A stretch of 64,000 bases of DNA from Olleya marilimosa CAM030 (GTDB lineage Bacteria > Bacteroidota > Bacteroidia > Flavobacteriales > Flavobacteriaceae): contig NZ_JADR01000007.1 in the NCBI RefSeq assembly GCF_000518485.1, positions 62,001 to 126,000 on the forward strand, read 5' to 3'. The position numbers were made by a program, and so were the translations under genes. Below the pieces are notes generated by a model. It was not told the origin of the DNA. It saw nothing but the letters and a program-made list of their open reading frames with translations, and did no database searches. Numbering within the stretch: position 1 is the stretch's first letter; each line of letters starts with the position of its first letter. Shown here one piece after another: positions 48,035 to 64,000 of the stretch.

Positions 48035-48046
48035 TATTTCCATTCG

Positions 48047-48129
48047 TCGACACTTAAAGGCTATCCGTCGACAGTTATCCATGTCTAACCGAAATATAAA
48101 ATTTAAACCTTGATTAAGGGGTAAATTTC
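48047..48129 (+). promoter_or_regulatory. LytTR-like direct-repeat promoter B (signalling operon)
   Basis: TCGACA (48047), TCGACA (48068) and CCGAAA (48089) are spaced 21 bp apart. The first two sit in CATTCGTCGACA and TATCCGTCGACA. The -7 box TAAATTTC (48122-48129, last base off consensus) starts 33 bp after the third repeat. The operon start codon is 27 bp further on. Confidence 0.8.
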
Positions 48130-48155: not shown

Positions 48156-48569
48156 ATGATTAAAAAACTTAAAATTCTTCTTATTGAAGATGACATGATT
48201 GAAATAATGAAATTGAACAGAACAATTTCTACTCTAAAATTAGATCATACTATTATTGAAGCCAATAATGGAGAAGTTGCATTGCAAATATTAGAGAAAA
48301 AAGACAACTTACCTGATATAATTTTATTAGATTTAAACATGCCTAAAATTAATGGTATAGAGTTTTTGAAAATTTTAAAGAATGATGATGTATTAAAATA
48401 TATTCCTACAATAATTTTGACAACATCTAATAATCAAAAAGATTTGTTAGAATGTTATAAAATTGGTGTAGCAGGATATGTGATTAAGCCTTTAAAATAT
48501 GAGGATTACGTAATCAAAATTGAAAGATTATTAGCCTATTGGAGCATAAATGAATTAATAGTAGTATAA
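48156..48569 (+). CDS. Single-domain response regulator (receiver only)
   Basis: A 137-residue CheY-like receiver without output domain. The acidic pair is in LIEDDMIE (residues 9-16), phospho-Asp59 in LLDLNMPKI, the Thr in ILTTS and the switch Lys111 in GYVIKPL. It is the first gene of the H-NOX/FIST signalling operon and lies 2 bp before the H-NOX gene. It may accept phosphate from the operon's kinases and pass it on or act as a sink. Confidence 0.9.
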   Translation: MIKKLKILLIEDDMIEIMKLNRTISTLKLDHTIIEANNGEVALQILEKKDNLPDIILLDLNMPKINGIEFLKILKNDDVLKYIPTIILTTSNNQKDLLECYKIGVAGYVIKPLKYEDYVIKIERLLAYWSINELIVV

Positions 48570-48571
48570 CA

Positions 48572-49111
48572 ATGAAGGGTATAGTTTTTACAGAGTTTTT
48601 AGAGTTAGTTGAAGATAAGTTTGGTCTAGAAATGGTAGACAATATCATAACAAGCTCTACGCTAGAGTCTGGTGGTATTTATACAGCTGTTGGGACGTAT
48701 AGTTTTTCAGAAATGCTTCAGCTTTTAACACATTTAAGCGAAAACACAGGTATTTCAATAGATAACTTATTATTAGTTTATGCAGAGCACTTTTTTAGTG
48801 TAATAGAAAATAGTTATCCAGGATTATTAGCAACTTATAATGATCCAATCGAGATGATTTCGTCTATTGAAAACCATATTCATGTAGAGGTCAGAAAAAT
48901 TTATCCTGACGCAGAATTACCAACGTTTGAAGTTGTAGAAAAAACTGAAAACTCTTTAGTATTGATATATACTTCAAGCAGAGCGATGCATCATTTTGGT
49001 TTAGGGTTAATGAATAAAACATTTGCACATTTTAACGCAACAGCAACTATAGATTTACAAAAAATAAAAGAAGACGGAACAGAAGTTAGATTTGTTATTA
49101 ATAAAAATTAA
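48572..49111 (+). CDS. H-NOX (HNOB) haem-based NO/O2 sensor protein
   Basis: A 179-residue stand-alone H-NOX domain. It opens with MKGIVFTEFLELVEDKFG, the family start. His104 in HIHVEVRKIYP aligns with the proximal haem ligand (His102 in Thermoanaerobacter H-NOX), and Tyr133-x-Ser135-x-Arg137 in YTSSR is the invariant haem-propionate motif. The distal Tyr typical of O2-binding members could not be judged by eye. Such proteins bind NO and regulate a neighbouring histidine kinase or cyclase. Its stop codon overlaps the start of a PAS kinase gene (TAATG), the likely partner. Confidence 0.93.
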   Translation: MKGIVFTEFLELVEDKFGLEMVDNIITSSTLESGGIYTAVGTYSFSEMLQLLTHLSENTGISIDNLLLVYAEHFFSVIENSYPGLLATYNDPIEMISSIENHIHVEVRKIYPDAELPTFEVVEKTENSLVLIYTSSRAMHHFGLGLMNKTFAHFNATATIDLQKIKEDGTEVRFVINKN

Positions 49112-51069
49112 TGAGTCAAGATCAGTCAGAAATATTAAAGCGTGCTTTAACTAGAGAAAAAGCAGCTAGAAAAGCTGCAGAAAAAATTCTTGAAGAAAAA
49201 TCAAGAGAACTTTACTTTACCTCTCAAAGATTAGAACAACTTCTAGACGAAAAATCCTCACAACTTCAAGGTGTTTTTGAGAATATAGCAGATGCTTATG
49301 TGGTCATGGACCTTCAAGGTAATGTTATAAAATTTAACGAAGCTGCAACAAAATTATTTGGTTATGATGTCTCTATAGATAAAGTAAATGTAACCAATCT
49401 CATATATAAAGAAGACTATCAATACGCTATGACTTCTTTTTATGAGTTATACACTAAAGGTTTTTTTAAAGGTTATGAAGCTAGAGTATACACCAAATCT
49501 AAAGAGGTAAAATGGGTGCATATAAACGCTAGTGTTATTTATGATAAAGATAAAAAACCAGTTGCTGCTCAAGGTATTGTTAGAGATATCACCAATCAAA
49601 AAATTTCTGAAGAAAAATTAATAGAATCTGAAAACAGATTAGCATCACTAGTTGTTAATTTGGATAGTGGTGTTATTTTGGAGGACGAAAACAGAAAAAT
49701 TGTATTGACTAACAATAAATTTTGCGAACTATTTGGATTAAAAGCTTCGCCTAAAGATTTAATAGGTTTAGACTGTAAAGCAGCCTCAGAGCAAAATAAA
49801 ATATTATTTAAAGATCCAGATGGGTTTTTAAAACAAATGAGAGCAATTGATGAGGCTAAAAAAGAGGTGCTTGGTGATGAATTAGAAATGGTTGATGGTA
49901 AAATTTTAGAACGCAATTATACACCAATTGTTTTGGGTCAAAAATCTAAAGGTTATTTGTGGACATTTAAGGATGTGACCTTAAATCGTACCTATAGAAA
50001 AAGCTTAGAAGCACAAAAGCAAAAATATTACAGCATAATTGCTAACATGAATTTAGGACTGGTTGAGGTTAACAATCAAGACGAAATCTTGATGGTAAAT
50101 CAAAGTTTTGAACAATTATCAGGTTATACAGAAAAGGAATTAAAAGGTAAAAATGCAGGAGAAATATTTTCGGCTGAAACTGGTTCTGAAATAATAAAAG
50201 AAGAAAATAAGAAGCGTCAAAAAGGATTGTCCAATTCCTATGAGATTAAAGCTAAAAACAAATCTGGAGAAATAAGATATTGGTTAATTAGTGGTGCACC
50301 AAATTATAATCTAGAAGGAGAGGTTGTAGGGTCTATTGGTATCCATTTGGATATTACTGAAATAAAAAATCTTGAATTACAAAAAGAAAAACTACTAGCT
50401 AAGTTAGAAAAAAGTAATGACGAGCTTCAAGAATATGCTCATATAGTTTCACACGATTTAAAATCGCCTTTACGAAGCATATATGCACTAGTTAGTTGGT
50501 TAAAAGAAGACAACCAAGGAAAGTTAGATGATGTAAGTCTCCAAAATTTTGCGTTGATAGAATCTACTCTAGAAAAAATGGAGCAACTAATTACAGATGT
50601 TTTAAATTACTCTAGCGTTGGTGCAGATAATACAGCAAAATCTGAAGTCAATTTAAATACAATGGTTAGCGAGCTAATTAGTATGCTATACATTCCTGAC
50701 CATATACACATTAAAAGCCTTAATACATTACCAAATATTAATGGTGATAAAACCAAGTTGCAACAGTTATTTCAAAACTTAATTAGTAATGCAGTAAAGT
50801 TTATAGATAAAACAGAAGGACATATTATCATAGATGTAGAGGATTTAAAAAGCCACTATAAGTTTTCAATTAAAGATAATGGTATAGGAATTGATAAAAA
50901 GTTTCATGATAAAATATTTAAAATATTCCATGCACTTAATAAAAGTAAGGACTCTACAGGAATTGGATTATCTATTGTTAAAAAAATAGTTAATTTACAC
51001 GAAGGAGAAATCTGGTTAGACAGCCAACCAACAGTAGGAACCACTTTTTATTTCACTTTAAAAAAATAG
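49111..51069 (+). CDS. PAS-domain sensor histidine kinase (putative H-NOX partner)
   Basis: A 652-residue soluble kinase without TM helices. A short coiled coil (residues ~5-50) precedes three PAS domains: AYVVMDLQGNVIKFNEAA at ~62, SGVILEDENRKIVLTNNKFC at ~184 and GLVEVNNQDEILMVNQSF at ~315. HisKA carries the phospho-His at His448 in SHDLKSPLRS. HATPase_c has NLISNAVKF, DNGIGIDKK and GIGLSIVKKI. Being soluble and coupled to H-NOX, it fits the H-NOX-associated kinase role. Its last 250 residues are closely similar to the second kinase at 52205. Confidence 0.92.
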   Translation: MSQDQSEILKRALTREKAARKAAEKILEEKSRELYFTSQRLEQLLDEKSSQLQGVFENIADAYVVMDLQGNVIKFNEAATKLFGYDVSIDKVNVTNLIYKEDYQYAMTSFYELYTKGFFKGYEARVYTKSKEVKWVHINASVIYDKDKKPVAAQGIVRDITNQKISEEKLIESENRLASLVVNLDSGVILEDENRKIVLTNNKFCELFGLKASPKDLIGLDCKAASEQNKILFKDPDGFLKQMRAIDEAKKEVLGDELEMVDGKILERNYTPIVLGQKSKGYLWTFKDVTLNRTYRKSLEAQKQKYYSIIANMNLGLVEVNNQDEILMVNQSFEQLSGYTEKELKGKNAGEIFSAETGSEIIKEENKKRQKGLSNSYEIKAKNKSGEIRYWLISGAPNYNLEGEVVGSIGIHLDITEIKNLELQKEKLLAKLEKSNDELQEYAHIVSHDLKSPLRSIYALVSWLKEDNQGKLDDVSLQNFALIESTLEKMEQLITDVLNYSSVGADNTAKSEVNLNTMVSELISMLYIPDHIHIKSLNTLPNINGDKTKLQQLFQNLISNAVKFIDKTEGHIIIDVEDLKSHYKFSIKDNGIGIDKKFHDKIFKIFHALNKSKDSTGIGLSIVKKIVNLHEGEIWLDSQPTVGTTFYFTLKK

Positions 51070-51071
51070 TA

Positions 51072-52205
51072 ATGAAAATAGCACAATTAGTAAAACATAA
51101 AAATAAAAATTGGGAATATGTAGTTGAAAAACAGAAACTAATTGAGCCTTTAGTATTGGTTTTTGGAAATAGATTTATGTTGGAAGAAAAAACAGTATAC
51201 CAAGAGCTTAGACAGATTTTTCCTGATGGACATATTGTTTTTGCGTCTTCTTGTGCAGAAATTTCATCTAATACAGTTAATCAAAACAGTATTACAGTTA
51301 CAGCCATTCAATTTGAAAAAAGTAAGTTTTTAATTAAAACTAGTAACGTCCTAAACAAAGATTTAGATAGTTATAAAACAGGAAACGAATTGATACAACA
51401 GTTTCCTGAAGAAGGTTTAAAATACACATTTGTAGTCTCAGAAGGTAGTTTTATTAACGGAAGCCAATTAACAAAAGGCATGAGTGCTGCTACAAATAAT
51501 AACCTGTTAATAACAGGAGGATTATGTGGTGATGATGCTCGTTTTGAAAAAACATTAGCATCTTATAACGAAAATCCAAAAGAAGGAGAGCTAGTGGCTA
51601 TAGGGTTTTATGGGGACACATTAGAAATTTCGTTTTCAATTCATGGTGGATGGACACCATTTGGCCCAGAACGTATTGTTACCAAATCTAGTGGTAATGT
51701 TTTGTATGAATTGGATGGTCAACCAGCCTTAGATTTATACAAAACTTATTTAGGAGACAAAGCTAGAGACCTTCCAGGAGCAGCATTATTATACCCTTTA
51801 AACGTAACGTCTGAAGACGAAGATCAATCCATCGTACGTTCAATTTTAAATATAAATGAAGCAGAAAATGCTGTAATTTTAGCAGGAGATATTAAAGAAA
51901 ACTCTAAAGTACAGCTCATGATGACAAATGTAGATCACATAGCAAATGCGTCAGAGCGTGCAGCAAAACAAGCGTTAGAGCATAGACAAAATAAACCTGA
52001 ATTAGCTATATTAGTAAGTTGTATAGGCAGAAAAATTGTTTTGGACCAACGTGTAGAAGAAGAAATTGAAGAAGTTATAGAAGTCATTGGTACAGACACA
52101 GTAGTTAGCGGATTTTATTCCTACGGAGAAATAGCACCATTTCATGGCGAAGTCGCATGCCAATTACATAATCAAACCATGACTATAACGCTAATTAGCG
52201 AGTAA
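51072..52205 (+). CDS. FIST-domain sensor protein (NosP-like)
   Basis: A 377-residue soluble protein with FIST_N (~residues 28-220) and FIST_C (~225-360). Landmarks are VFASSCAEISSNTV, VVSEGSFINGSQL, ITGGLCGDDARFEKT and SCIGRKIVLDQRVEEE, then GFYSYGEIAP near the end. FIST proteins sense small ligands; the NosP branch binds haem and NO and controls a kinase encoded beside it. Whether this one binds haem cannot be read here. It overlaps the second kinase gene by one base (TAATG), which suggests that kinase as partner. Confidence 0.88.
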   Translation: MKIAQLVKHKNKNWEYVVEKQKLIEPLVLVFGNRFMLEEKTVYQELRQIFPDGHIVFASSCAEISSNTVNQNSITVTAIQFEKSKFLIKTSNVLNKDLDSYKTGNELIQQFPEEGLKYTFVVSEGSFINGSQLTKGMSAATNNNLLITGGLCGDDARFEKTLASYNENPKEGELVAIGFYGDTLEISFSIHGGWTPFGPERIVTKSSGNVLYELDGQPALDLYKTYLGDKARDLPGAALLYPLNVTSEDEDQSIVRSILNINEAENAVILAGDIKENSKVQLMMTNVDHIANASERAAKQALEHRQNKPELAILVSCIGRKIVLDQRVEEEIEEVIEVIGTDTVVSGFYSYGEIAPFHGEVACQLHNQTMTITLISE

Positions 52206-53269
52206 TGAATTCATTATTAAAAAGGCAAATACGCAAATATTTAAGTGAAGATTTAAAAAACAACGAGGCACTTTCAGAGTTTTTTAATGCTATAAGTAGC
52301 TCTTACAATAATTTTGACGAGCAATCACATATGATTCAAAGAGCAATGTCTATTAGTTCTGACGAGTTGTATGCTGCAAATCGTAAGCTACAAAACGAAG
52401 CACATGAGCAATCAAAACTAATAGAAAAGCTTAAAAGCGTTATAAACACACTTAAATTTTATAATTTAGAAGAAGACAAAAAAGCCGAAAATATAGAGCT
52501 TACAGGTTTAAAATTAGTAGACTTTATCGATAATCAAACCAAGGAGATTATCCAAATGAATAAACAAAAACAAGCATTATTAAATGAGTTGGCTTATCAA
52601 AATCAAGAACTTAGTGATTATGCACACATGGTATCTCATGATTTAAAATCGCCACTTCGTAGTATTGACGCTTTAACGTCATGGTTATCTGAAGACTATG
52701 CAGAGGTTTTTGATAGTAATGGAAAAAACACCTTAGATTTAATACGAGATAACGTTGAAAAAATGGATACGCTTATTAGTGGTATTTTAGAGTACTCTAC
52801 GATAGGTAAAAATCAAATAGAAACCTACGATGTGGATGCTAATTTGCTAATAGATAATATTCTAAAAATTATTCATGTACCAACTAATATTAATATTACA
52901 AAAACCAATTTGCCTGTTCTAAAAGGTGATAAATATAGGTTGCAACAATTGTTTCAAAACCTTATTAGTAATGCCATTAAATACAATGATAAAGACCTAG
53001 GTACTATTAACATTGGAGCAGAAGATAAAACCGACTATTGGCAGTTTTATATAAAAGATAACGGTAAAGGTATAGATAAATCCTACTTTGATAAAATATT
53101 CAAAACCTTTATAAAATTAGAAAACAATCCAGATTCAACAGGAATTGGATTGTCTATAGTTAAAAAAATTGTCGAATTATATGGTGGTACAATCTGGCTA
53201 GAATCTCAAGTCAATGTTGGTACAACATTTTATTTCACTTTAAAAAAATCCCCAAATGGAACAACCTAA
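52205..53269 (+). CDS. Soluble histidine kinase (putative FIST partner)
   Basis: A 354-residue kinase with no TM helix and no PAS domain. The N-terminal ~130 residues are helical/coiled-coil. HisKA has phospho-His145 in SHDLKSPLRS, and HATPase_c has NLISNAIKY, DNGKGIDKS and GIGLSIVKKIVELYGG. Kinase domains of this type beside FIST genes are the usual partners of NosP. It overlaps the Hpt gene by 14 bp. The kinase core resembles that of the PAS kinase upstream, pointing to a common origin and perhaps common targets. Confidence 0.9.
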   Translation: MNSLLKRQIRKYLSEDLKNNEALSEFFNAISSSYNNFDEQSHMIQRAMSISSDELYAANRKLQNEAHEQSKLIEKLKSVINTLKFYNLEEDKKAENIELTGLKLVDFIDNQTKEIIQMNKQKQALLNELAYQNQELSDYAHMVSHDLKSPLRSIDALTSWLSEDYAEVFDSNGKNTLDLIRDNVEKMDTLISGILEYSTIGKNQIETYDVDANLLIDNILKIIHVPTNINITKTNLPVLKGDKYRLQQLFQNLISNAIKYNDKDLGTINIGAEDKTDYWQFYIKDNGKGIDKSYFDKIFKTFIKLENNPDSTGIGLSIVKKIVELYGGTIWLESQVNVGTTFYFTLKKSPNGTT

Positions 53270-53573
53270 CCAATCCTACATTAACAGCTTATCTGGAGGT
53301 GATGACGCCTTTAAACAAAAGCTAATCGATATTATTAAAAAAGAATATCCAGAAGAAAAACAAGTCTATTTTAATAATTTTAAAGCTAATAATTTTAAAT
53401 TAGCAGCAGATAATGTGCATAAACTTAAACATAAAATTAGTATTTTAGGCCTAGAAAAAGGTTATGAAGTCGCAGTAGCTTACGAAAACAATTTGTTAAA
53501 TGGTACTACAGATCTTAAAGATCAATTTGAAAGGATATTAAAAAACATAACCGATTATTTAGAAGACATTTAA
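53256..53573 (+). CDS. Hpt histidine phosphotransfer protein
   Basis: A 105-residue helical protein. The Hpt motif is NVHKLKHKISILGLEKGY with phospho-His55 (H-x-L-K-x5-L-G). It is a free phosphotransfer module, which implies a multistep relay: kinase to a receiver, to this Hpt, to a final regulator. It sits between the second kinase and the LytTR regulator, both in the same operon. Its start overlaps the kinase end by 14 bp. Confidence 0.9.
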   Translation: MEQPNQSYINSLSGGDDAFKQKLIDIIKKEYPEEKQVYFNNFKANNFKLAADNVHKLKHKISILGLEKGYEVAVAYENNLLNGTTDLKDQFERILKNITDYLEDI

Positions 53574-53587
53574 ATATAAATAAAAAT

Positions 53588-54301
53588 ATGAATTGTATTA
53601 TCATTGATGATGAAGCTACAGCTAGGATGATTATCTCTCAATTGTGCTCAAATGTACCAAGTCTAAATGTTTTGGAAGAGTTTCCAAATGCAATGCAAGC
53701 CATAAAATATTTAAATCAAAACGAAATAGATTTAATTTTTCTTGATATACATATGCCAGATTTTACTGGTTTTGATTTTATCGATACCCTTAAAAATCCA
53801 CCTAAAATAATACTAACAACATCAGACCCAAATTTTGCTATTCAAGCTTTTGAATATGACTGTATTGTTGATTATTTAGTTAAACCTATAACGTTAGATC
53901 GCTTTAAAAAAGCAATTGATAAGGCAGAAGCTAAAAAAATTACAACTCCTAAAGAGGTTTCAAAATCTGAAAAGGTGGAAACATCTTCTGGCAATGATTT
54001 GTATGTAAATATTGATAGACGCTTAATTAAAATTGACATACCAAGTATTTATCTTGTTGAGGCTAAAGGTGATTATATTCAAGTTAAAACAGAGGATAAG
54101 AACTATACAGTACATTCTACACTAAAAAAAATTGAAGATAAATTACCTGACAATTTATTTTTAAAAGTACACAGGTCATACATCATTAACATTAAAAAAA
54201 TTATTGATATTGAGGATAATAGTGTGCTAATTAAAAAAGATGTAATTCCTGTAAGTCGATCTAATAGACCAGAATTAATGAAACGTCTTAATTTACTGTA
54301 A
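53588..54301 (+). CDS. LytTR-family response regulator
   Basis: A 237-residue regulator. The receiver has Asp7/Asp8, phospho-Asp53 in IFLDIHMPD and Lys99 in DYLVKPI. The DNA-binding LytTR domain (~135-237) has NDLYVNIDRRLIKIDIPSI, YLVEAKGDYIQV and LKVHRSYIIN, the family hallmarks. LytTR proteins bind direct repeats of about 9 bp separated by about 12 bp. Repeats with exactly that 21-bp period lie before this operon and before the next two genes, so they are its likely sites. It is the last gene of the signalling operon. Confidence 0.92.
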   Translation: MNCIIIDDEATARMIISQLCSNVPSLNVLEEFPNAMQAIKYLNQNEIDLIFLDIHMPDFTGFDFIDTLKNPPKIILTTSDPNFAIQAFEYDCIVDYLVKPITLDRFKKAIDKAEAKKITTPKEVSKSEKVETSSGNDLYVNIDRRLIKIDIPSIYLVEAKGDYIQVKTEDKNYTVHSTLKKIEDKLPDNLFLKVHRSYIINIKKIIDIEDNSVLIKKDVIPVSRSNRPELMKRLNLL

Positions 54302-54442
54302 TTGTAAAACATCATCCTTATTGTTTAATTTATCAATCCTATACCTTGTCAGGTAGTTAGGTGGTAATGCTGTTGTGTGTTTTTACGTCAATCCTCGATA
54401 AAAGGTAAAATTATTGGCTAATCTTTTATTTTTTACCATTCA

Positions 54443-54505
54443 TCTACACATAAAATTGTACTAATCGAAAAACCCTAAACCTACCACGCTTTAAAATTAG
54501 TTTTG
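54443..54505 (+). promoter_or_regulatory. LytTR-like direct-repeat promoter C
   Basis: TCTACA (54443, within ACCATTCATCTACA) is followed by TCGAAA at 54465, a 22-bp step. The -7 box TAGTTTTG (54498-54505, exact TAnnTTTG) starts 33 bp after TCGAAA. A first repeat at 54422 (TCTTTT) is weak. Confidence 0.7.
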
Positions 54506-54526: not shown

Positions 54527-55021
54527 ATGAAAAAACTAACTATAATCCTAATCGTATTATTCAATATTTTATTAATGTCTTGTTCAGTAGACGAAGAGGT
54601 AAATTTACCTGAAAGCTATAATGCTACAATCGTGGATGTATCCTACTCACAATTAGATTATGAGATTATAGAGTTGATTAATAATTACAGAATTTCTCAA
54701 GGATTATCAAGTTTAGATATTTTAAATGAAGCGTCTAAAGAAGCTATAAATCACAATAATTATATGGTTAGCCAAGGCGCACCAAGTCATGATTATTTTT
54801 ATTTGCGTTCTCAAAACTTAAAACAAACCGTTAATGCAAAGACGGTTTCAGAGAATGTTGCATTTGGTTTTAGTAATGCGCAAGCCTTAGTAAGTGCTTG
54901 GTTAAATAGTGAAGGACATAGAGAAAACATAGAAAATCCTGAGGCAACAAATATTGGTATATCTACAACACAAGATGCAGAAGGTAAAAACTATTTCACT
55001 AATATTTTTGTTAAGTTGTAA
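54527..55021 (+). CDS. CAP-domain (SCP/PR1) lipoprotein
   Basis: A 164-residue surface lipoprotein (lipobox LLMSCSVD, Cys19). The CAP domain covers ~45-164: ELINNYRISQGLSSLDILNE, the His in APSHDYF, SENVAFG and WLNSEGHRENI with the second metal-site His. Bacterial CAP proteins are secreted and of uncertain activity. It is expected to be an output of the LytTR regulator because its promoter carries the phased repeats. Confidence 0.88.
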   Translation: MKKLTIILIVLFNILLMSCSVDEEVNLPESYNATIVDVSYSQLDYEIIELINNYRISQGLSSLDILNEASKEAINHNNYMVSQGAPSHDYFYLRSQNLKQTVNAKTVSENVAFGFSNAQALVSAWLNSEGHRENIENPEATNIGISTTQDAEGKNYFTNIFVKL

Positions 55022-55036
55022 TTTTAAACTTGTTTA

Positions 55037-55119
55037 TCTACAGTTAATTACCATTGGTCTACACTTACAACGTGTCAATCGAAAAACATATTAAAAAGCA
55101 CCTATTACAAGTAAATTTG
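55037..55119 (+). promoter_or_regulatory. LytTR-like direct-repeat promoter D
   Basis: TCTACA (55037), TCTACA (55058, within ACCATTGGTCTACA) and TCGAAA (55079) are spaced 21 bp apart. The exact -7 box TAAATTTG (55112-55119) starts 33 bp after the third repeat and 34 bp before the start codon. Confidence 0.82.
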
Positions 55120-55145: not shown

Positions 55146-57761
55146 ATGATAAAACAACTACACACATCAAAAAAGCAAATATTAGTAGTGTTAATTTTAC
55201 TATTAAGTTTTTCTGTTAACGCACAGGACACTCCGTTTAATTGTGATTATAGTGCGTATTTATTTCAGTATAATGATGTTTATGCAATTGATTTAGCTTC
55301 TGGTAATGCTTATATAGCTGCTAAGGATATTACACCAGGAAATATCAACGCAGCAGCTTACAATCCAGCAGATGGATTTATTTGGGGTTATTTAAGCTCG
55401 CCTTCTAATACTATAGTTAGAATTGGTAATGATTTTCAAACAACAACGTTTACTATTCCAGAATTGACCTCAGGAAATAAATATGTTGGAGATATTAGTC
55501 CAAATGGTGTGTATTATTTTAAAGCTGGAGGTACTAGCTATTTTAAAGTAGATTTAGATCCAAACTCAGCAACATATACACAATACTTATCTACAGAAAA
55601 TTTATCTCAAAACATCAGCATTCACGATTGGGCATTTAATGCAGTAGATGGAAATTTATACGCAGTAGAAAAAAGTACAAATATTTTATATCGTATTGAT
55701 CCAACAACAAGTAATGTTCAAGCTTTAGGTGAAGTTCCAATTTTATCTGGATTAAATTATACATATGGTGCTGTTTATTTTGATGCAGATGGTCGTTTTT
55801 ACGTGTCTGCAAATCAAACAGGTACTATATATGTAATTCAAAGTGTTCAAGACCTGACAGCGTCATCAACCATGGATTCTAATTTATTTGCATTTGGTCC
55901 TTCAAGCGCAAGTAATGATGGAGCGCGTTGCCCTACAGCTCCTGTAGCTCAAGAAATTTGTGATAATGGTATTGATGATGATGGTGACGGATTGATTGAT
56001 TGTGAGGACCCTTCTTGTTCTGGTTTTGGAAGTTGTGACGTTATTGCACCTCCAACTACAGCTAACGATGGTGGTTTAGAAAGTAACGGAAGATTGTCTG
56101 AAGCTATTAATAAACGAAACTTTAATCGTGCTAAAACGAGTTATAAATTTAACCAAAAAACAGCAAAACGTGTCACTAAAGATACAAGTCGTAACAATTC
56201 TAATTACAGATCAGCTAGTAATAGTTTTCAATTACAAGATTTTGTACCATTAAATACAATTAACGAAGATTATGCAATAGACTCAACTCCATTAGATTTA
56301 CTAAATATTACTAATGCTACAGAGGTGTACTCAGTAGATTATATGCAAAATGGTGCTTCAATAGCCTCAATATTAGCATTAAAAACAGAAAATGGTGTGT
56401 ATGAGCATACAAAATATATTTGTGACAGATTATTAGGAGCCGAGTTAATTTCGGTATCAACCATAGATATTAACGATCAATCGTTTATTAAATCTATTAT
56501 TAAAAATGCAGATGGTAGTTTTGAATATGTATTAAGTTTATCTGCAAAATTAGATAATGCTGATGCTAATTTTGTTATCGAGTCACATTGGAATTTAGAC
56601 TTATATCAATCAGATATCACGTTTTATAATTTCCAAATTTGGTCAGATTCAATTGATGATTTATACAATTTAGCTCAAGAGGTATTAAACTTATTGGATA
56701 CGGTAAAGCCAATCTCGGAATACCAACTATCAACACCTCCAACTGTATTTGTTAGAAAAGGAAAATATGCTAATGGTACTTTAGACCTTCAAATAATAAA
56801 TACAAATGCAACTAACACTGTTGCTTTTGATTCTGGTTTTAGAACAACTGAAACTAGTGATTTTAACTACACTTCTAGTAGTCTTGATTTAAATGAAAAC
56901 TATATCACAGAAATAACTGTACCAACTGGACATTTATTTGATATTGGATTTAGAATTGGAGATGGTATTAATACACCAGACGATTTATTTATGTCTGATG
57001 GTCCTTGGGGTTTTGATGACTCTCAGGCATCTACTAGCGTTAATAATTATAACGTAACAGAAAACACAATTGCGTTTAATAGTTTAGATTTTCCAATAGA
57101 ACGTAATGTGACGCTTAATGCAACTACAAGTACCTATTTTGCAGCTTACAGAGCTTTGACTCCACGTTTTAAAGCTGTTGATTTAACAGATTTTAATAGT
57201 CTTAAATTAAAAGCTAAAGGAACAGGAAACTTAGAGATTACATTAGTGAAGCAAAGTATTTCTAATTGGGAAGAACAATACAAAACGACCATTGCTTTAA
57301 CAGATAGTTTTCAAAACTATGTGCTTTCATTTGCTGATTTTACATCTAATTTACCTACAGATTTAAATGCAGATGATGTTGTGACTATTGTCTTTACAAT
57401 GGTTAGCGAAGATGGAAGCATTGTGACAAAAGAAATGAATTTGCAAGATGTGCGTTTTTCTAGAGGAACAACATTGCTTGTTAATGATTTTGAAACTGAA
57501 ACTTCTGCTAATAACATTGCTGCGTACCCAAATCCAATGTTGGATATGTCAAACATACACTTTACTTCAACAAAATCTGAATCAGTACAATTGGTGATTT
57601 ACAATCTGTTAGGTAAAGTAGTTTATAATAAAACAATAAATACACAAGTTGGTAAAAATCAGATTGCTATAAGCAGACAAAATTTAAGCTCTGGATTATA
57701 CCTCTGTAAATTATCAAGTGATAACACACATTACAATCCCTTAAAATTACTAGTAAAGTAA
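55146..57761 (+). CDS. Large T9SS-secreted protein (DUF6923-like)
   Basis: An 871-residue secreted protein. A signal peptide ends VNAQDTPF (residue ~27). Residues ~30-265 look like a beta-propeller-type DUF6923 region (YAIDLASGNAYIA, AAYNPADGFIWGY, RIDPTTSN). A calcium-binding-type linker CDNGIDDDGDGLIDCEDPSC follows at ~280. A middle region of unknown type covers ~300-780. The T9SS type A sorting domain is at the end (~790-871; IAAYPNPMLDMSN, LSSGLYLCKL). It is probably attached to or released from the cell surface, as an output of the phased-repeat promoter just upstream. Confidence 0.87.
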   Translation: MIKQLHTSKKQILVVLILLLSFSVNAQDTPFNCDYSAYLFQYNDVYAIDLASGNAYIAAKDITPGNINAAAYNPADGFIWGYLSSPSNTIVRIGNDFQTTTFTIPELTSGNKYVGDISPNGVYYFKAGGTSYFKVDLDPNSATYTQYLSTENLSQNISIHDWAFNAVDGNLYAVEKSTNILYRIDPTTSNVQALGEVPILSGLNYTYGAVYFDADGRFYVSANQTGTIYVIQSVQDLTASSTMDSNLFAFGPSSASNDGARCPTAPVAQEICDNGIDDDGDGLIDCEDPSCSGFGSCDVIAPPTTANDGGLESNGRLSEAINKRNFNRAKTSYKFNQKTAKRVTKDTSRNNSNYRSASNSFQLQDFVPLNTINEDYAIDSTPLDLLNITNATEVYSVDYMQNGASIASILALKTENGVYEHTKYICDRLLGAELISVSTIDINDQSFIKSIIKNADGSFEYVLSLSAKLDNADANFVIESHWNLDLYQSDITFYNFQIWSDSIDDLYNLAQEVLNLLDTVKPISEYQLSTPPTVFVRKGKYANGTLDLQIINTNATNTVAFDSGFRTTETSDFNYTSSSLDLNENYITEITVPTGHLFDIGFRIGDGINTPDDLFMSDGPWGFDDSQASTSVNNYNVTENTIAFNSLDFPIERNVTLNATTSTYFAAYRALTPRFKAVDLTDFNSLKLKAKGTGNLEITLVKQSISNWEEQYKTTIALTDSFQNYVLSFADFTSNLPTDLNADDVVTIVFTMVSEDGSIVTKEMNLQDVRFSRGTTLLVNDFETETSANNIAAYPNPMLDMSNIHFTSTKSESVQLVIYNLLGKVVYNKTINTQVGKNQIAISRQNLSSGLYLCKLSSDNTHYNPLKLLVK

Positions 57762-57921: not shown

Positions 57922-58332
57922 TTAATCCTGCTCTTTGTCAAATACGGTAGCCACCATATTTATCAAATTTTTTCGTGTAATGGGTTTAATAATAAAGTCT
58001 GTAATGGCTTCATACTCTTTTGCTTTTTTAATATCTACAGGATCTATAGAGGAACTAACAATGTATAGTGTTACTTTTTTGGGATATTTCATTTTAATAA
58101 ACTCATCTAAAAATTGCCATCCATCCATAATTGGCATATTAATATCTAATAATATTAAATCAGGAACATTTTTGCCAGTTTTAATAATTTCGGATAAGCC
58201 TTCAATTGCATCAGCTCCATTATTATAAATTATGAAATTTTGACATATATCTGTAGCTAATAAAATTTTTTTAGCAGCAAAAATAAAGATGTGATCGTCG
58301 TCAATTAGACAGGCAGATTCAATTTGTTTCAT
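57922..58332 (-). CDS. Single-domain response regulator
   Basis: A 136-residue receiver of the Rcp1-like type. LIDDDHIFIF starts the domain, phospho-Asp63 lies in LLDINMPIMD, and IVSSSIDP and the switch Lys in FIIKPIT complete it. There is no output domain. It overlaps the upstream PAS kinase gene by 14 bp, so the two are a translationally coupled pair on the minus strand. Confidence 0.9.
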   Translation of the reverse strand: MKQIESACLIDDDHIFIFAAKKILLATDICQNFIIYNNGADAIEGLSEIIKTGKNVPDLILLDINMPIMDGWQFLDEFIKMKYPKKVTLYIVSSSIDPVDIKKAKEYEAITDFIIKPITRKNLINMVATVFDKEQD

Positions 58333-59833
58333 ACATTAAATATATAGAAAATATGCTTCCTTTGTTTATTTTGCTTTTTACTTTAACTTTACCATGCATG
58401 GCTTCAATTTGGTTTTTTGTAATATATAAGCCTAATCCTTTAGCTTCTTTGTGGTTATGAAAAGTTTTGTATAACCCAAAAATTTTATCTTTATGAAGGT
58501 CTAGATTAATACCAAGACCATTATCTTCAATTTCTATTTTAACAAATTTATCAGACTGTTCTGCGCTTAAAGTTATTTCGGGTGTTATATGGTCTTGTTT
58601 GTATTTTAAAGCATTAGATATAAAATTAAATAATATGCTGTCCAAATAAGCAGGTATTGCTAAAACATAAATATCTTGTTCTATGTTTATATTAATGATG
58701 GCTTTAGTTTCCTTAATTTCGGCACTAAAATTTGAGATGGCTTTATTTGTAAAATCTAAAAGATTACAACGCTGTAAATCTTGTTCTTTATTGTCGTTTA
58801 TAGTAGACACTTGGTTAAGATTGTCAATGGTTTCGCTTAATTGATGGACAGCTTCTAATATTAACGGAACATATTCGTTATTAGTTGCTTCTGGTATTTC
58901 TGAGTGCATTAAATCTAATAACATTTGTATGTTTCCAGAATGTGACCTTAGGTTGTGTGATACAATATGAGCAAAATTTAATAATCTTTCATTTTGCTGT
59001 TTTGTGGTTTTTAAAAGCGTTTCTACCTTTTTATTAGCTATTGTACGTTTAGTTATATCAATTATATGAGATATAAAATGAACAGGTTTGAAATTTTCAT
59101 CTCTTAAAATAGAGACTGATAATAGACAATGTATGATAGATTTGTCTTTTCTGATGTATCGTTTTTCACACTGAAATTTATTGCTTTTACCAGCAATTAA
59201 ATCTTTTATATTTTGAGGTATTACATCGACATCTTCTGGATGAGATAAAGTATTTATCGGGAAGCCACTAAGTTCCTCTTTTGTGTAGCCTAAATAGTCG
59301 CTAAAGCTTTTGTTTGAAGTAAGTATTTGACCATCCAAACTAACTAATGCCATAGCGTTAGGAGCATTGTCAAACGTTGTACGTATTAATTCTTCTTTTA
59401 ATTTAAGTTCAAATAGAGTTTTGTTTTTTTCGGTAATATCTTGGATGACACCTATAACTTTTTGAGTTGCATCATTCTTTATTACAGGATAAGCTACAAT
59501 ACGCACCCATTTAATATTGTTTTTTGCTGTTTTTAGTTGTACCTCATTATCATAAGGTTCTTGTTTATTAACAGCACGATTAAATAGGATGCTTATTAAC
59601 TCTCTATCATAACCTTCTAAAAAAAAATTGATGCCTTCTTCTAAACTAGGATTGTAGTCTTGCTCAACTTCATGAATGGTTTTGGTCATTGCACTCCATG
59701 TCACTTCATTGTTTTGGAGGTTTACTTCCCAGGACCCAATTGCAATATCTCTTTGTATTGAGTCCATGTATGTGTAACTAACATTGTCTTTTGTTACGTG
59801 TTTTTGAAATAACTGTTTGTAAAGCTCTTTCAT
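58319..59833 (-). CDS. PAS-domain sensor histidine kinase
   Basis: A 504-residue soluble kinase. Two PAS domains cover ~25-140 and ~150-262 (FDNAPNAMALVSLDGQI). The phospho-His is His293 in VSHNLRSHSGN, an HWE-unlike box typical of Bacteroidota PAS kinases. HATPase_c has FISNALKYK, EDNGLGINLD and GLGLYITKNQIE. A -7 box TAGTTTTG (complement of 59851-59858) lies 17 bp before the start. Weak LytTR-like repeats upstream are noted among the findings. Confidence 0.9.
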   Translation of the reverse strand: MKELYKQLFQKHVTKDNVSYTYMDSIQRDIAIGSWEVNLQNNEVTWSAMTKTIHEVEQDYNPSLEEGINFFLEGYDRELISILFNRAVNKQEPYDNEVQLKTAKNNIKWVRIVAYPVIKNDATQKVIGVIQDITEKNKTLFELKLKEELIRTTFDNAPNAMALVSLDGQILTSNKSFSDYLGYTKEELSGFPINTLSHPEDVDVIPQNIKDLIAGKSNKFQCEKRYIRKDKSIIHCLLSVSILRDENFKPVHFISHIIDITKRTIANKKVETLLKTTKQQNERLLNFAHIVSHNLRSHSGNIQMLLDLMHSEIPEATNNEYVPLILEAVHQLSETIDNLNQVSTINDNKEQDLQRCNLLDFTNKAISNFSAEIKETKAIININIEQDIYVLAIPAYLDSILFNFISNALKYKQDHITPEITLSAEQSDKFVKIEIEDNGLGINLDLHKDKIFGLYKTFHNHKEAKGLGLYITKNQIEAMHGKVKVKSKINKGSIFSIYLMYETN

Positions 59834-61516: not shown

Positions 61517-63577
61517 TTACTCCCTAAAAACAGGCTTCTCAAATAATAACCATTTAAAACGTAATCCAATTTCGTTAAACGTAAAACCTGCTGCAGTTGC
61601 AGACGCAATATTGCTTCGTGTACCAAAAAGGTTAGCCATACAACGCTCTGAAAATTTATAACCTAATTTAGCCTGTATTCTGTATGTGCTTTGCTGTTCG
61701 TCATCTTCAATGTATTGTAAACCTGTTGCAGCTGTAAGCTCGTAGTACCATTCTTTAGGTTTAGCTATGTTTTCATCCTTAATCAGGTTTGCAAAAACCT
61801 CTACTGCATTAAAGGTTTCTGGTGAGAAATATATTGTAGGTACTTGGTTTTTAAACGTAATGTATTGGTAGTTTAAACCTGCTTTAAGTGATGGTTTTGG
61901 TAAGATGTTATAGTATAAAGAAGTAAACAATAAATTTCGGGCATTACTATCACTTTGGCTTGTGTAAAAGTATTGTGTAAACCAACCTAAGTTAAAATTA
62001 GTGTTTAAGCTGTAGTTAGCATAAAAGTTATTTTGTACAATCTCGCGATCTAATAACTCTGCATTAAAGCTTTGTAATTCACGCTTATAACCAATAGTTA
62101 AATCTTGTAGTTTAAATGGTTTTATATTAAAAGAGACATCTGTAAGTAATTGTGTGTAGTCATTTGTAGTTGCTTTGGCAGAGGTTAATCCTGCAGTACC
62201 TTTAAAGGTTACGTTTGGTAATAATTGGTAAGATAATCCTGCACTAAAATCGTGAGAGGTTGCTTCGTTATTTGTTACAGCATTGCTTGTGCTTCGGTAA
62301 TTATAGCTTCCTAAGATTTTAAATTTTGTAGACAATGGAAACTCTAGATTGTTGTTAAGTGCAAATGCTTCATTATCTCCATTATCAAATGTGTACGATG
62401 CTTTACCTTCGTAAAAAGGGGTAAACGTTGTGTTAAGGTTTTTTATAAAGTTAGTGGCATCTTTTTGGTTGTCGTAAAACTTCAACGTGTTTTCGGCAGA
62501 GGTATAAGCTGCTTCATATTTACCTAACGCTTTTAAAGCATTTGCGTTTCCTAAGTTACCATCAAACGATGTGCTGTCGTTTACCAAAATCTGGTCGTAA
62601 TCTTTAACACTCTTTTTAAAATCGCTTTTGTAAATGTTAAGTGTTGCACGTAAAGCTAATACCCAATTGTCGTTAGGTTTAGTCTCTATTAATTTCGCGA
62701 TAAGCGTGTTTGCAGTTTTATATTTTTTATTCCAAATTAAAGCTTGTGCATAACGCTCTGTGGTTTGTTGTGTAAGTGTTGCATCTGTTGTATCTTCTAA
62801 ACTATCGTATGCTTGTTGACTTAATTGTAGTGCGTCTTTCTCTTTTCCGTTTAAGTGAGAAACTAACGCTAAACCATTTAATGCTGTGATTTTGTTTTCA
62901 GGGTTTTTAGCTAAAATATCATAAGTGGCTTTAGCTTCATCTAACTTATTTGCAATTAAATATAAGTTTGCTAAGTTTAATAAGGTGTCTTTGTCGTTGT
63001 CAAAAAGCGTTAGGTTTTGTTTTAATAGGGATTCGGCTTCGTCATACTGTTGCGCTTGTTGCTTTTGGTAAGCATAGCCTAGATACATGTATTTTTTAGA
63101 GGTTAATGCGTTTGGGTTGCCTGGTAAAACCTCTAATGCTTTGTTTACATAAGTTAGTGCAGCTTCATATTCTTTTAAATTAGATAGTGTGTTTGCATAA
63201 CTTAATAAAGCAGGAAAACTTTTAGGATCTTCGTCAATTAAACCTTTAAAATAGGTTTTGGCTTTAGTGAAGTTGCTATTCCATAATAAAGACTCACCAT
63301 AATTTAGTTTCACCTCAAAATCTGTTGGGTAATCTGCTAATAGATTTGTAAACAGTGTGTTGGCTTGCTCTGGTTTTCCGTTTAATCCAATTGCACGACC
63401 ATAACATAGTCTAGCAGTTTTATTGTCTGGATGGTCTTTTAGTATGTTTTGAAAAAACGTTTCCGCTTTAGCGTACTTACCAGTTTCTAAATAGGTAAAG
63501 CCTTCTTGCATGTCTTGAGCATAGCTAAAAACAGCAGTCAATAATAGGGTAAGTAGGGTTATAAATTTGAGTTTCAT
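61517..63577 (-). CDS. TPR-repeat protein with C-terminal outer-membrane beta-barrel
   Basis: A 686-residue protein. A signal peptide ends SYAQDMQEG (residue ~21). TPR repeats span ~22-370 (for example GFTYLETGKYAKAETFFQNI). The last ~300 residues form barrel strands (KASYTFDNGDNEAF, FKILGSYNYRSTS, ending FNEIGLRFKWLLFEKPVF). The layout resembles the TPR-barrel porins of polysaccharide secretion (PgaA, BcsC, PelB) but no homology to one is claimed. It is divergent from the STAS gene, and the region between them carries the LytTR-like repeats. Confidence 0.82.
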   Translation of the reverse strand: MKLKFITLLTLLLTAVFSYAQDMQEGFTYLETGKYAKAETFFQNILKDHPDNKTARLCYGRAIGLNGKPEQANTLFTNLLADYPTDFEVKLNYGESLLWNSNFTKAKTYFKGLIDEDPKSFPALLSYANTLSNLKEYEAALTYVNKALEVLPGNPNALTSKKYMYLGYAYQKQQAQQYDEAESLLKQNLTLFDNDKDTLLNLANLYLIANKLDEAKATYDILAKNPENKITALNGLALVSHLNGKEKDALQLSQQAYDSLEDTTDATLTQQTTERYAQALIWNKKYKTANTLIAKLIETKPNDNWVLALRATLNIYKSDFKKSVKDYDQILVNDSTSFDGNLGNANALKALGKYEAAYTSAENTLKFYDNQKDATNFIKNLNTTFTPFYEGKASYTFDNGDNEAFALNNNLEFPLSTKFKILGSYNYRSTSNAVTNNEATSHDFSAGLSYQLLPNVTFKGTAGLTSAKATTNDYTQLLTDVSFNIKPFKLQDLTIGYKRELQSFNAELLDREIVQNNFYANYSLNTNFNLGWFTQYFYTSQSDSNARNLLFTSLYYNILPKPSLKAGLNYQYITFKNQVPTIYFSPETFNAVEVFANLIKDENIAKPKEWYYELTAATGLQYIEDDEQQSTYRIQAKLGYKFSERCMANLFGTRSNIASATAAGFTFNEIGLRFKWLLFEKPVFRE

Positions 63578-63627
63578 GTTTAGGTTTTAATTCACTTGCA
63601 AGTTAGTCAATCATTTTCATTCATTCA

Positions 63628-63690
63628 TCTACACCAATGCTCCACTCGTCGAAATTCAACAGTCCTTCAGAGGTTTGCGTTGCATCTTTG
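63628..63690 (+). promoter_or_regulatory. LytTR-like direct-repeat promoter E
   Basis: TCTACA (63628, within CATTCATCTACA) and TCGAAA (63649) are 21 bp apart. A -7-like box CATCTTTG (63683-63690, first base off TAnnTTTG) starts 34 bp after TCGAAA and lies 41 bp before the start codon. Confidence 0.65.
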
Positions 63691-63730: not shown

Positions 63731-64000
63731 ATGGCACTAACAATTACACAACAGGACAACACAATTATTTTAAATGGAAGCTTAAATACTGCTACTATTA
63801 ATAATTTTAAAATACATTTTGGTTGTATAGTAAATACATTGAAAAGTGTAACATTAAATATTGATAAGGTTACAGATATTGATGAATGTGCTTTGCAAAC
63901 TTTAAAAACAATGTATGTAAACGGAGTTGTAAATCAACAGATGTTTTTTGTTGAGGGTAAAAGGAGTGAAGAGATTTACGAAGCATTTGTATATCCACAA
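63731..64000 (+). CDS. STAS-domain protein (3' truncated by window)
   Basis: Ninety codons from ATG 63731 to the window edge with no stop codon. The sequence has the STAS pattern: TITQQDNTIILNGSLNTATI, then VTLNIDKVTDIDECALQTLK, with LQTLK at the usual helix. The Ser phosphorylated in anti-anti-sigma factors is replaced by Glu/Cys in DIDECAL, so classic Ser phosphorylation may not apply. It has a LytTR-like promoter and may open another signalling operon beyond the window. Confidence 0.8.
   Translation, partial: MALTITQQDNTIILNGSLNTATINNFKIHFGCIVNTLKSVTLNIDKVTDIDECALQTLKTMYVNGVVNQQMFFVEGKRSEEIYEAFVYPQ

Follow-up and report, generated by a model that had tools for sequence, protein, structure and literature searches.

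Most of what is known about the haem-based sensors H-NOX and NosP comes from proteobacteria, in which their signals pass largely through cyclic di-GMP (c-di-GMP), and how nitric oxide (NO) enters the decision to form a biofilm in bacteria that lack GGDEF and EAL enzymes is, to our knowledge, an open question. Here, we analyze a seven-gene operon of Olleya marilimosa CAM030 that encodes a free receiver (REC), an H-NOX protein, a FIST-domain protein, two histidine kinases (HK1 and HK2), a histidine phosphotransfer protein (Hpt) and a REC-LytTR response regulator. It lies in a stretch of 64,000 nucleotides (contig NZ_JADR01000007.1, positions 62,001 to 126,000), hereafter the window, whose coordinates are used throughout; other loci and genomes are cited by our own labels.

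Several described systems share features with this operon. In Shewanella oneidensis, a NosP/FIST arm reportedly modulates the H-NOX arm of the NO network. The Vibrio pathway involves hybrid kinases, a sigma-54 type regulator and small RNAs, and the Spo0 phosphorelay (KinA-Spo0F-Spo0B-Spo0A) joins several kinases to a free receiver, a phosphotransferase and a DNA-binding regulator. The Spo0 layout is similar to that of the window operon, but its sensors and regulator are unrelated, and the window operon has a Pfam Hpt-type protein. According to the parts of PMC8846402 devoted to it, the Shewanella network (HnoX-HnoK-HnoB/D plus NosP) is alike in that H-NOX controls a separate kinase and the outcome concerns biofilm, but it acts on c-di-GMP turnover, whereas the search for GGDEF and EAL proteins gave no match here and both sensors share one operon with Hpt and LytTR. 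In the relevant portions of PMC6769237 and PMC8738867, Vibrio H-NOX/HqsK and NosP/VpsS signal to LuxU-LuxO; there, too, NO-sensing kinases act on a single protein of the Hpt type, LuxU, and on a regulator that binds DNA, with matrix (vps) genes downstream in V. cholerae. Each pathway described there has either H-NOX or NosP, while the window operon has a separate REC and a LytTR regulator. The Burkholderia NosP-NosK-NosR system, as presented in an excerpt of PMC12570481, also places a FIST protein beside a soluble kinase without a recognized sensor domain, yet its HD-GYP response regulator is absent from the window operon, whose FIST protein is no NosP equivalog. FIST genes near hnox were noted for H-NOX group 1 in a review (PMC8738867); this is a statistical neighborhood from a network seeded with V. 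cholerae H-NOX, and the section concerned contains no operon, relay or regulon. The H-NOX of Kordia algicida (PDB 6BDD/6BDE), approximately 80% identical to that of the window, is treated as an isolated protein in the literature excerpts that concern it. Both of its PDB entries carry aldolase as the molecule name, and name searches would therefore miss it. The seven-gene order is also present in K. algicida OT-1 (L174).

All seven genes lie on the forward strand, in the order REC, H-NOX, HK1, FIST, HK2, Hpt and REC-LytTR, and no two neighbors are separated, or overlap, by more than 14 bases. The first encodes a single-domain receiver of 137 residues (48156-48569), for which we propose a role as phosphoryl shuttle, and the second an H-NOX haem sensor of 179 residues (48572-49111; Pfam HNOB, 130.2 bits, cut-off 25.5). 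A proximal histidine, a conserved proline and a YxSxR motif are the haem-motif residues of H-NOX proteins. They are intact in the window protein as H104, P117 and Y133-x-S135-x-R137 (YTSSR), and among 122 operons H104, P117, Y133 and S135 are kept in all and R137 in 121. HK1 (652 residues, 49111-51069) consists of three PAS stretches followed by HisKA and HATPase domains, the FIST protein (377 residues, 51072-52205) of FIST and FIST_C domains (147 and 121 bits), and HK2 (354 residues, 52205-53269) of HisKA and HATPase domains. The Hpt protein (105 residues, 53256-53573), with a histidine at position 55 (His55), scores 18.6 bits against a Pfam cut-off of 24.6 and is the only product below its cut-off, whereas REC and LytTR domains are both recognized in the last gene (237 residues, 53588-54301), the proposed output. 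H-NOX and HK1, as well as FIST and HK2, are coupled by start/stop overlaps of one base, and HK2 and Hpt overlap by 14 bases. Both kinases appear soluble, neither having a strongly hydrophobic stretch (best 19-residue means, 0.80 and 1.14). In all of these respects (gene positions and strand, H-NOX and Hpt residues, sensor-kinase overlaps and soluble kinases), the original prediction was accurate. Its description of the two HisKA regions as near-identical is too strong, because HK1 and HK2 share 52.5% identity over 236 residues of the DHp and catalytic domains and 51% with a DHp query of 77 residues, and only the core VSHDLKSPLRSI is the same. Zinc/redox sensing, reported for V. cholerae H-NOX in part of PMC8738867, was considered for the window H-NOX and rejected, since the sequence of the latter contains no cysteine.

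Among 397 genomes of the same family, H-NOX was found in 146, FIST in 116 and both in 93. A search for neighboring H-NOX and FIST genes, as suggested by the original prediction, found them no more than 8 kb apart and in the same orientation in at least 75 of the 397 genomes (from all 150 H-NOX places and FIST places of at least about 125 bits among the matches listed), with FIST downstream by 1.8-3.3 kb in 74 and upstream in one. We then read 160 loci, which do not form a random sample: 40 family loci taken mostly in order of H-NOX score, 20 from a phylum search (13 outside the family), 20 further loci from family genomes, and 80 of 492 confirmed close named relatives. Removal of duplicates in the C-terminal part of H-NOX left 150 loci, and exclusion of 13 with less than 7.5 kb of downstream sequence left 137. 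The core of REC, H-NOX, HK1, Hpt and LytTR is present in 115 of these 137 non-redundant loci, the other 22 being different. FIST-HK2 lies between HK1 and Hpt in 70 of the 115, with the kinase gene following FIST in 70/70, and 45 have no FIST after HK1. Recurrence of the core genes and of the FIST/H-NOX pairing exceeds chance. Outside the family, 13 H-NOX loci were read (12 with enough sequence) and one, L082, has the complete operon; in three from other families (L076, L077 and L080), H-NOX is followed by a single protein with PAS, kinase, REC and Hpt parts (Hpt scores, 24.7, 27.4 and 32.7 bits; cut-off 24.6), with a LytTR gene directly after it in L080. Two unusual copies were also seen, namely an H-NOX operon without adjacent LytTR (L065 in genome G382) and a seemingly decaying operon with an internal stop in H-NOX and a truncated FIST (L066). 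The claim that no described system has this composition holds insofar as we found no description of the operon, of an H-NOX/LytTR pathway or of the DNA site presented below in the open-access literature. The arrangement itself is common (70/137 loci), which led us to reject its uniqueness, and hnox-FIST neighborhoods had already been noted in the part of PMC8738867 cited above.

FIST-HK2 is an optional cassette of this operon. A divergent FIST type (approximately 20% identical) occurs in 8 of 73 operons and a divergent H-NOX type (approximately 25% identical) in 5 of 73, in both cases with unchanged gene order; both sensor slots have been refilled by distant homologues. Identities of H-NOX, FIST and LytTR correlate at 0.74-0.76 in the 60 operons without divergent sensors, and the FIST-LytTR correlation over all 73 operons is 0.29. 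In two Tenacibaculum loci (L192 and L194), a second kinase follows HK1 with no FIST there, and a FIST-kinase pair lies just upstream, separated from the operon by an opposite-strand gene in L192. A loss of FIST considered for these two loci was withdrawn when the upstream pair was found; the cassette is rearranged in them, not merely present or absent. Two loci of one genus of the family (g128; L072 and L074) have a third kinase between HK2 and Hpt.

A conserved block, first seen in the intergenic DNA that separates LytTR from the secreted-protein gene following it, links the operon to candidate target genes. It is a tandem site with the consensus CCATTCGTC[GT]A[CT]A[CG]T[AT]AA and a period of 21 bp. 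From a seed chosen by eye, a matrix was trained on 69 LytTR-to-secreted-gene regions (site in 66), and the test used other promoters from these loci. When its first 18 columns were applied to the 135 regions preceding REC, 119 scored 14 bits or more, as did one of the 135 reverse complements and none of 1350 dinucleotide shuffles. A second copy is located 21 bp from the 119 sites in 55% of cases on the (+) side and in 20% on the (-) side, the next spacing reaching 2%. At 16 bits or more, the 150 loci contain 294 sites, 272 of which fall in the span from 300 nt before a gene start to 60 nt into the gene, versus 2 sites in 713 kb of simulated sequence. AgrA-type LytTR regulators use direct-repeat sites about two helical turns apart, a spacing with which the predicted 21-bp tandem sites upstream of the operon agree. 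In the window, the predicted LytTR-type tandem site before the operon (48040-48077, + strand) comprises CCATTCGTCGACACTTAA at 48040-48057 and a copy, TATCCGTCGACAGTTA, at 48062-48077, 21 bp apart. TAnnTTTG is the -7 box of Bacteroidota promoters. At secreted-protein promoters, 46 such boxes follow 63 sites within 90 nt; the distance is 43-44 nt for 34 of them and 64-65 nt for 10. The constant position of the site ahead of the core promoter suggests that the regulator activates rather than represses.

The occurrence of the site also follows the operon across genomes. The exact pattern CATTCRTCKAYASTWA was found 189 times in 146 genomes with H-NOX (94 with at least one) and 20 times in 251 genomes without it (18 with at least one), the backwards-pattern control giving 6 and 9, respectively. 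Two operons without H-NOX and FIST (L264 and L265) retain REC, a PAS kinase, Hpt (24.3 and 20.5 bits, both under the Pfam cut-off) and LytTR, and each of their genomes has two sites. The REC-LytTR protein of the operon is thus the presumptive owner of the predicted site. There are also second loci with REC and LytTR genes and a site before each REC gene (L252, L254, L256 and L257), two of which adjoin flippase/glycosyltransferase genes.

The genes behind the site point to the cell surface. In the window, a predicted site at 54436-54453 (+ strand; TAnnTTTG box TAGTTTTG at 54498) precedes a CAP-domain protein of 164 residues with a lipoprotein-like start, as read from its sequence (54527-55021, + strand). 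Another at 55051-55068 (+ strand; box TAAATTTG at 55112; by eye, a weaker copy 21 bp upstream) precedes DS871, a secreted protein of 871 residues with Por_Secre_tail (type IX sorting) and DUF6923 domains (55146-57761, + strand). Both are proposed targets; the predicted structure of DS871 is of low confidence (pLDDT 64) and was not used. DS871 homologues lie downstream of LytTR in 67 of the 115 core loci. A weaker predicted site (15.6 bits, 63621-63638, + strand) precedes the STAS-flippase part of a polysaccharide cluster, whose edge is marked by a TPR protein (61517-63577, - strand) with a homologue elsewhere beside STAS/flippase/glycosyltransferase genes. The STAS-like gene (63731-64000, + strand, running beyond the window; 21.0 bits, cut-off 22.6) is the first of a cluster with a flippase, a glycosyltransferase and a REC-glycosyltransferase fusion. 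Of the nine sites with at most one mismatch in the window's genome, six are clustered within 25 kb (C6:110-135 kb), where they precede the operon, the genes for the CAP protein and DS871, those for the STAS-like protein and the flippase, the glycosyltransferase gene and the REC-glycosyltransferase fusion; of the other three, one precedes a secreted-type protein of 1550 residues and two are inside genes. A genome of the same genus (G346) has a site at the same six promoters, and at other loci, genes of the UDP-sugar dehydrogenase, sugar-transferase, Wzz-like, export, STAS and flippase types are found beside the operon. Among 20 site regions of our own choice from the exact sites listed, polysaccharide or DS871-type genes follow the site in seven (L249, L250, L252, L254, L255, L258 and L261), and four comprise the two H-NOX-less relay operons and two of the REC + LytTR loci (L256 and L257). 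The new element here is a probable regulon, in which a LytTR-type tandem site precedes genes for matrix and surface components.

Some further genes in these regions deserve mention. Receivers fused to a family 2 glycosyltransferase or a bacterial sugar transferase sit near or behind the site (L242:17934-19175, corresponding to G000:C6:134933; L184:15781-16968; L249:1915-3093), and direct phosphate control of polysaccharide enzymes through such REC domains is possible. Between DS871 and the polysaccharide cluster, the window has a pair of a 136-residue receiver and a 504-residue PAS kinase (57922-59833, - strand), also present in the genome of the same genus (L247), with no site of 14 bits or more before it. 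A protein with the thaumarchaeal output domain TackOD1 is encoded among polysaccharide-type genes after LytTR in another locus (L190:16907-18283).

How the two sensor/kinase pairs are wired is suggested by gene content, fusions and conservation. All parts of a relay (kinase, receiver, a weakly scoring Hpt and an output receiver) are present, and the Hpt of the operon is the sole match to this domain (E <= 1) in a genome that is 99.99% complete, although a divergent Hpt could escape such a search. The same genome has no GGDEF and no EAL match; HD-GYP was not searched. An unlinked GAF-domain kinase elsewhere in it (HK3, L270) shares 56% identity with the in-operon kinase of L072 over 426 of 450 residues, and HK1, HK2 and HK3 are closer to each other than to the other kinases compared in the genome, the HK2 DHp being 54% identical to that of HK3, 51% to that of HK1 and at most 40% to the next. 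From the single detectable Hpt and the lack of GGDEF and EAL matches, a multi-kinase relay that reaches matrix genes by transcription rather than c-di-GMP is likely. That two kinases could feed one relay had been proposed at the outset; genomics supports this putative wiring well (a core without FIST in 45/115 loci and without either sensor in two genomes, fused HK-REC-Hpt proteins, the likeness of the three kinases and the single Hpt match). The likely flow is from HK1, HK2 and HK3 to REC, Hpt and LytTR.

Taken together, gene order and its conservation, intact motifs, the site with its geometry and association with the operon, and the kinds of genes behind it lead us to favor, as probable on balance, a split phosphorelay with at least two cytoplasmic sensors and a REC-LytTR output acting on its own operon and on surface-protein and exopolysaccharide genes. 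NO would bind the His104 haem of H-NOX, which would control HK1; FIST would bind a second ligand (haem/NO being possible) and control HK2; and HK3 would probably join them. The kinases would phosphorylate the free REC, from which phosphate would pass through the only detectable Hpt to REC-LytTR, and the phosphorylated regulator would bind the tandem sites that, at their 21-bp spacing, immediately precede the core promoter, and would thereby drive the operon and the secreted surface protein and exopolysaccharide genes. With no detectable GGDEF or EAL protein, NO would therefore reach the matrix via transcription, not c-di-GMP.

A number of observations weigh against this reading. The ligands, phosphotransfer, binding of the site by LytTR, the sign of regulation (activation, not repression) and how NO affects the kinases are steps that we infer from sequence. 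A quick LytTR tree of 122 operons requires 24 or more changes in FIST presence, a count that has no shuffle control for comparison, and FIST is therefore an optional input. The closest DHp to that of HK2 belongs to HK3, not HK1. No TAnnTTTG box was found after the site in the window's own operon promoter, and only 23 boxes follow the 119 sites at REC promoters, 16 of them at the expected distances (8 at 64 nt and 8 at 43-44 nt; shuffle means in the box analysis, 2.25 and 6.35). No secreted-protein gene is among the four genes after LytTR in 48 of the 115 core loci, and 9 of the 20 chosen regions have no recognized target (intragenic sites in three genomes without H-NOX, together with L251, L253, L259, L260, L262, which has CAP homologues, and L263). 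The exact site is missing from 52 of the 146 H-NOX genomes; allowing up to two mismatches in the window's genome gives no excess (56 sites versus 57 for the backwards pattern), and exact matches and promoter position were therefore used instead. Moreover, the genome has ten LytTR matches, so the ownership of the site is deduced from co-occurrence, with no correction for phylogeny.

That last point leaves room for another regulator, to which the tandem site would belong and which would control the operon and matrix genes alike. The ten LytTR matches would suit this; however, across 397 genomes the site follows H-NOX, which serves here as a proxy for the operon, and it persists at loci that lack H-NOX and FIST but have REC-HK-Hpt-LytTR, as well as at separate REC + LytTR loci, which makes such an owner improbable. 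Similarly improbable, by perhaps a shade less, are two insulated pathways on a shared transcript, one from H-NOX/HK1 to the free REC and the other from FIST/HK2 through Hpt to LytTR. The overlap of each sensor gene with its own kinase gene would suit them, as would the placing of REC beside H-NOX and of Hpt/LytTR beside HK2 in the seven-gene form, but FIST is missing after HK1 in 45 of 115 core loci (L192 and L194 among them, with their second kinase and upstream FIST-kinase pair), an HK-REC-Hpt fusion is found beside H-NOX, and the genome has a single Hpt match. Ordinary H-NOX/HK and FIST/HK two-component systems that are neighbors without shared logic are very improbable: FIST does occur alone beside a hybrid kinase, as in L092-L095 and L097-L106, yet the order is identical in 70 loci, and either sensor can be replaced by a distant homologue in the same slot.

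A much closer contender keeps the same relay and regulon and concerns the FIST ligand, which may be a small non-haem molecule such as a metabolite held in the fold pocket; we give it almost an even chance. The system would then compare NO with another signal and not possess two NO sensors. The operon was initially thought to combine two NO sensors, which is supported for H-NOX with its intact haem residues and possible for FIST. On the NCBIfam NosP equivalog model, the window FIST scores 58.8 bits against a cut-off of 450 (seven other Bacteroidota FIST proteins, 40-81 bits), and its membership in NosP was rejected on this score. The FIST + FIST_C architecture adjoining a kinase is present, but "NosP-like" is not justified as a statement of function, given this score and the retention of H366, the histidine among eight pocket-type positions checked, in only 65 of 73 operon FIST proteins; the other seven (C317, R256, R320, E331, E353, Y223 and W194) are kept in 73/73. 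The predicted FIST fold (pLDDT 93.7) resembles FBXO22 and Toblerone-fold cyclic amide hydrolases, which also favors a non-haem ligand, and no relevant solved structure matched by sequence. In the other direction, H366 is retained in those 65 proteins and in 20 of 20 FIST proteins from loci without H-NOX, and characterized FIST/NosP proteins bind haem and sense NO according to the excerpt of PMC12570481. FIST genes also occur in other settings, including tandem copies in several family genomes (e.g., G069, G101 and G261), 27 plasmid records (the best 38.5% identical), and, with no H-NOX nearby, the L092-L095 and L097-L106 loci, where the adjoining gene encodes a hybrid PAS kinase-REC of about 580 residues.

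Extended beyond the window, the split phosphorelay might represent a system widely distributed in this Bacteroidota family in which NO sensed by H-NOX and ligands sensed by FIST and GAF domains feed one phosphorelay that controls transcription of exopolysaccharide and type-IX-secreted surface protein genes, with the REC-glycosyltransferase/sugar-transferase fusions of the regulon perhaps under phosphate control; this broader proposal is tentative, its chance being a little short of even. The sharing of one phosphotransfer protein by two sensor/kinase pairs would be a natural case for the study of signal convergence, for which genomes with a single pair are ready comparisons. The operon offers a complete candidate path from a haem sensor to a promoter, and the short DNA site predicts targets. 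If true, the system would be functionally equivalent, in bacteria without GGDEF and EAL enzymes, to the switch by which NO and c-di-GMP govern biofilms in proteobacteria.

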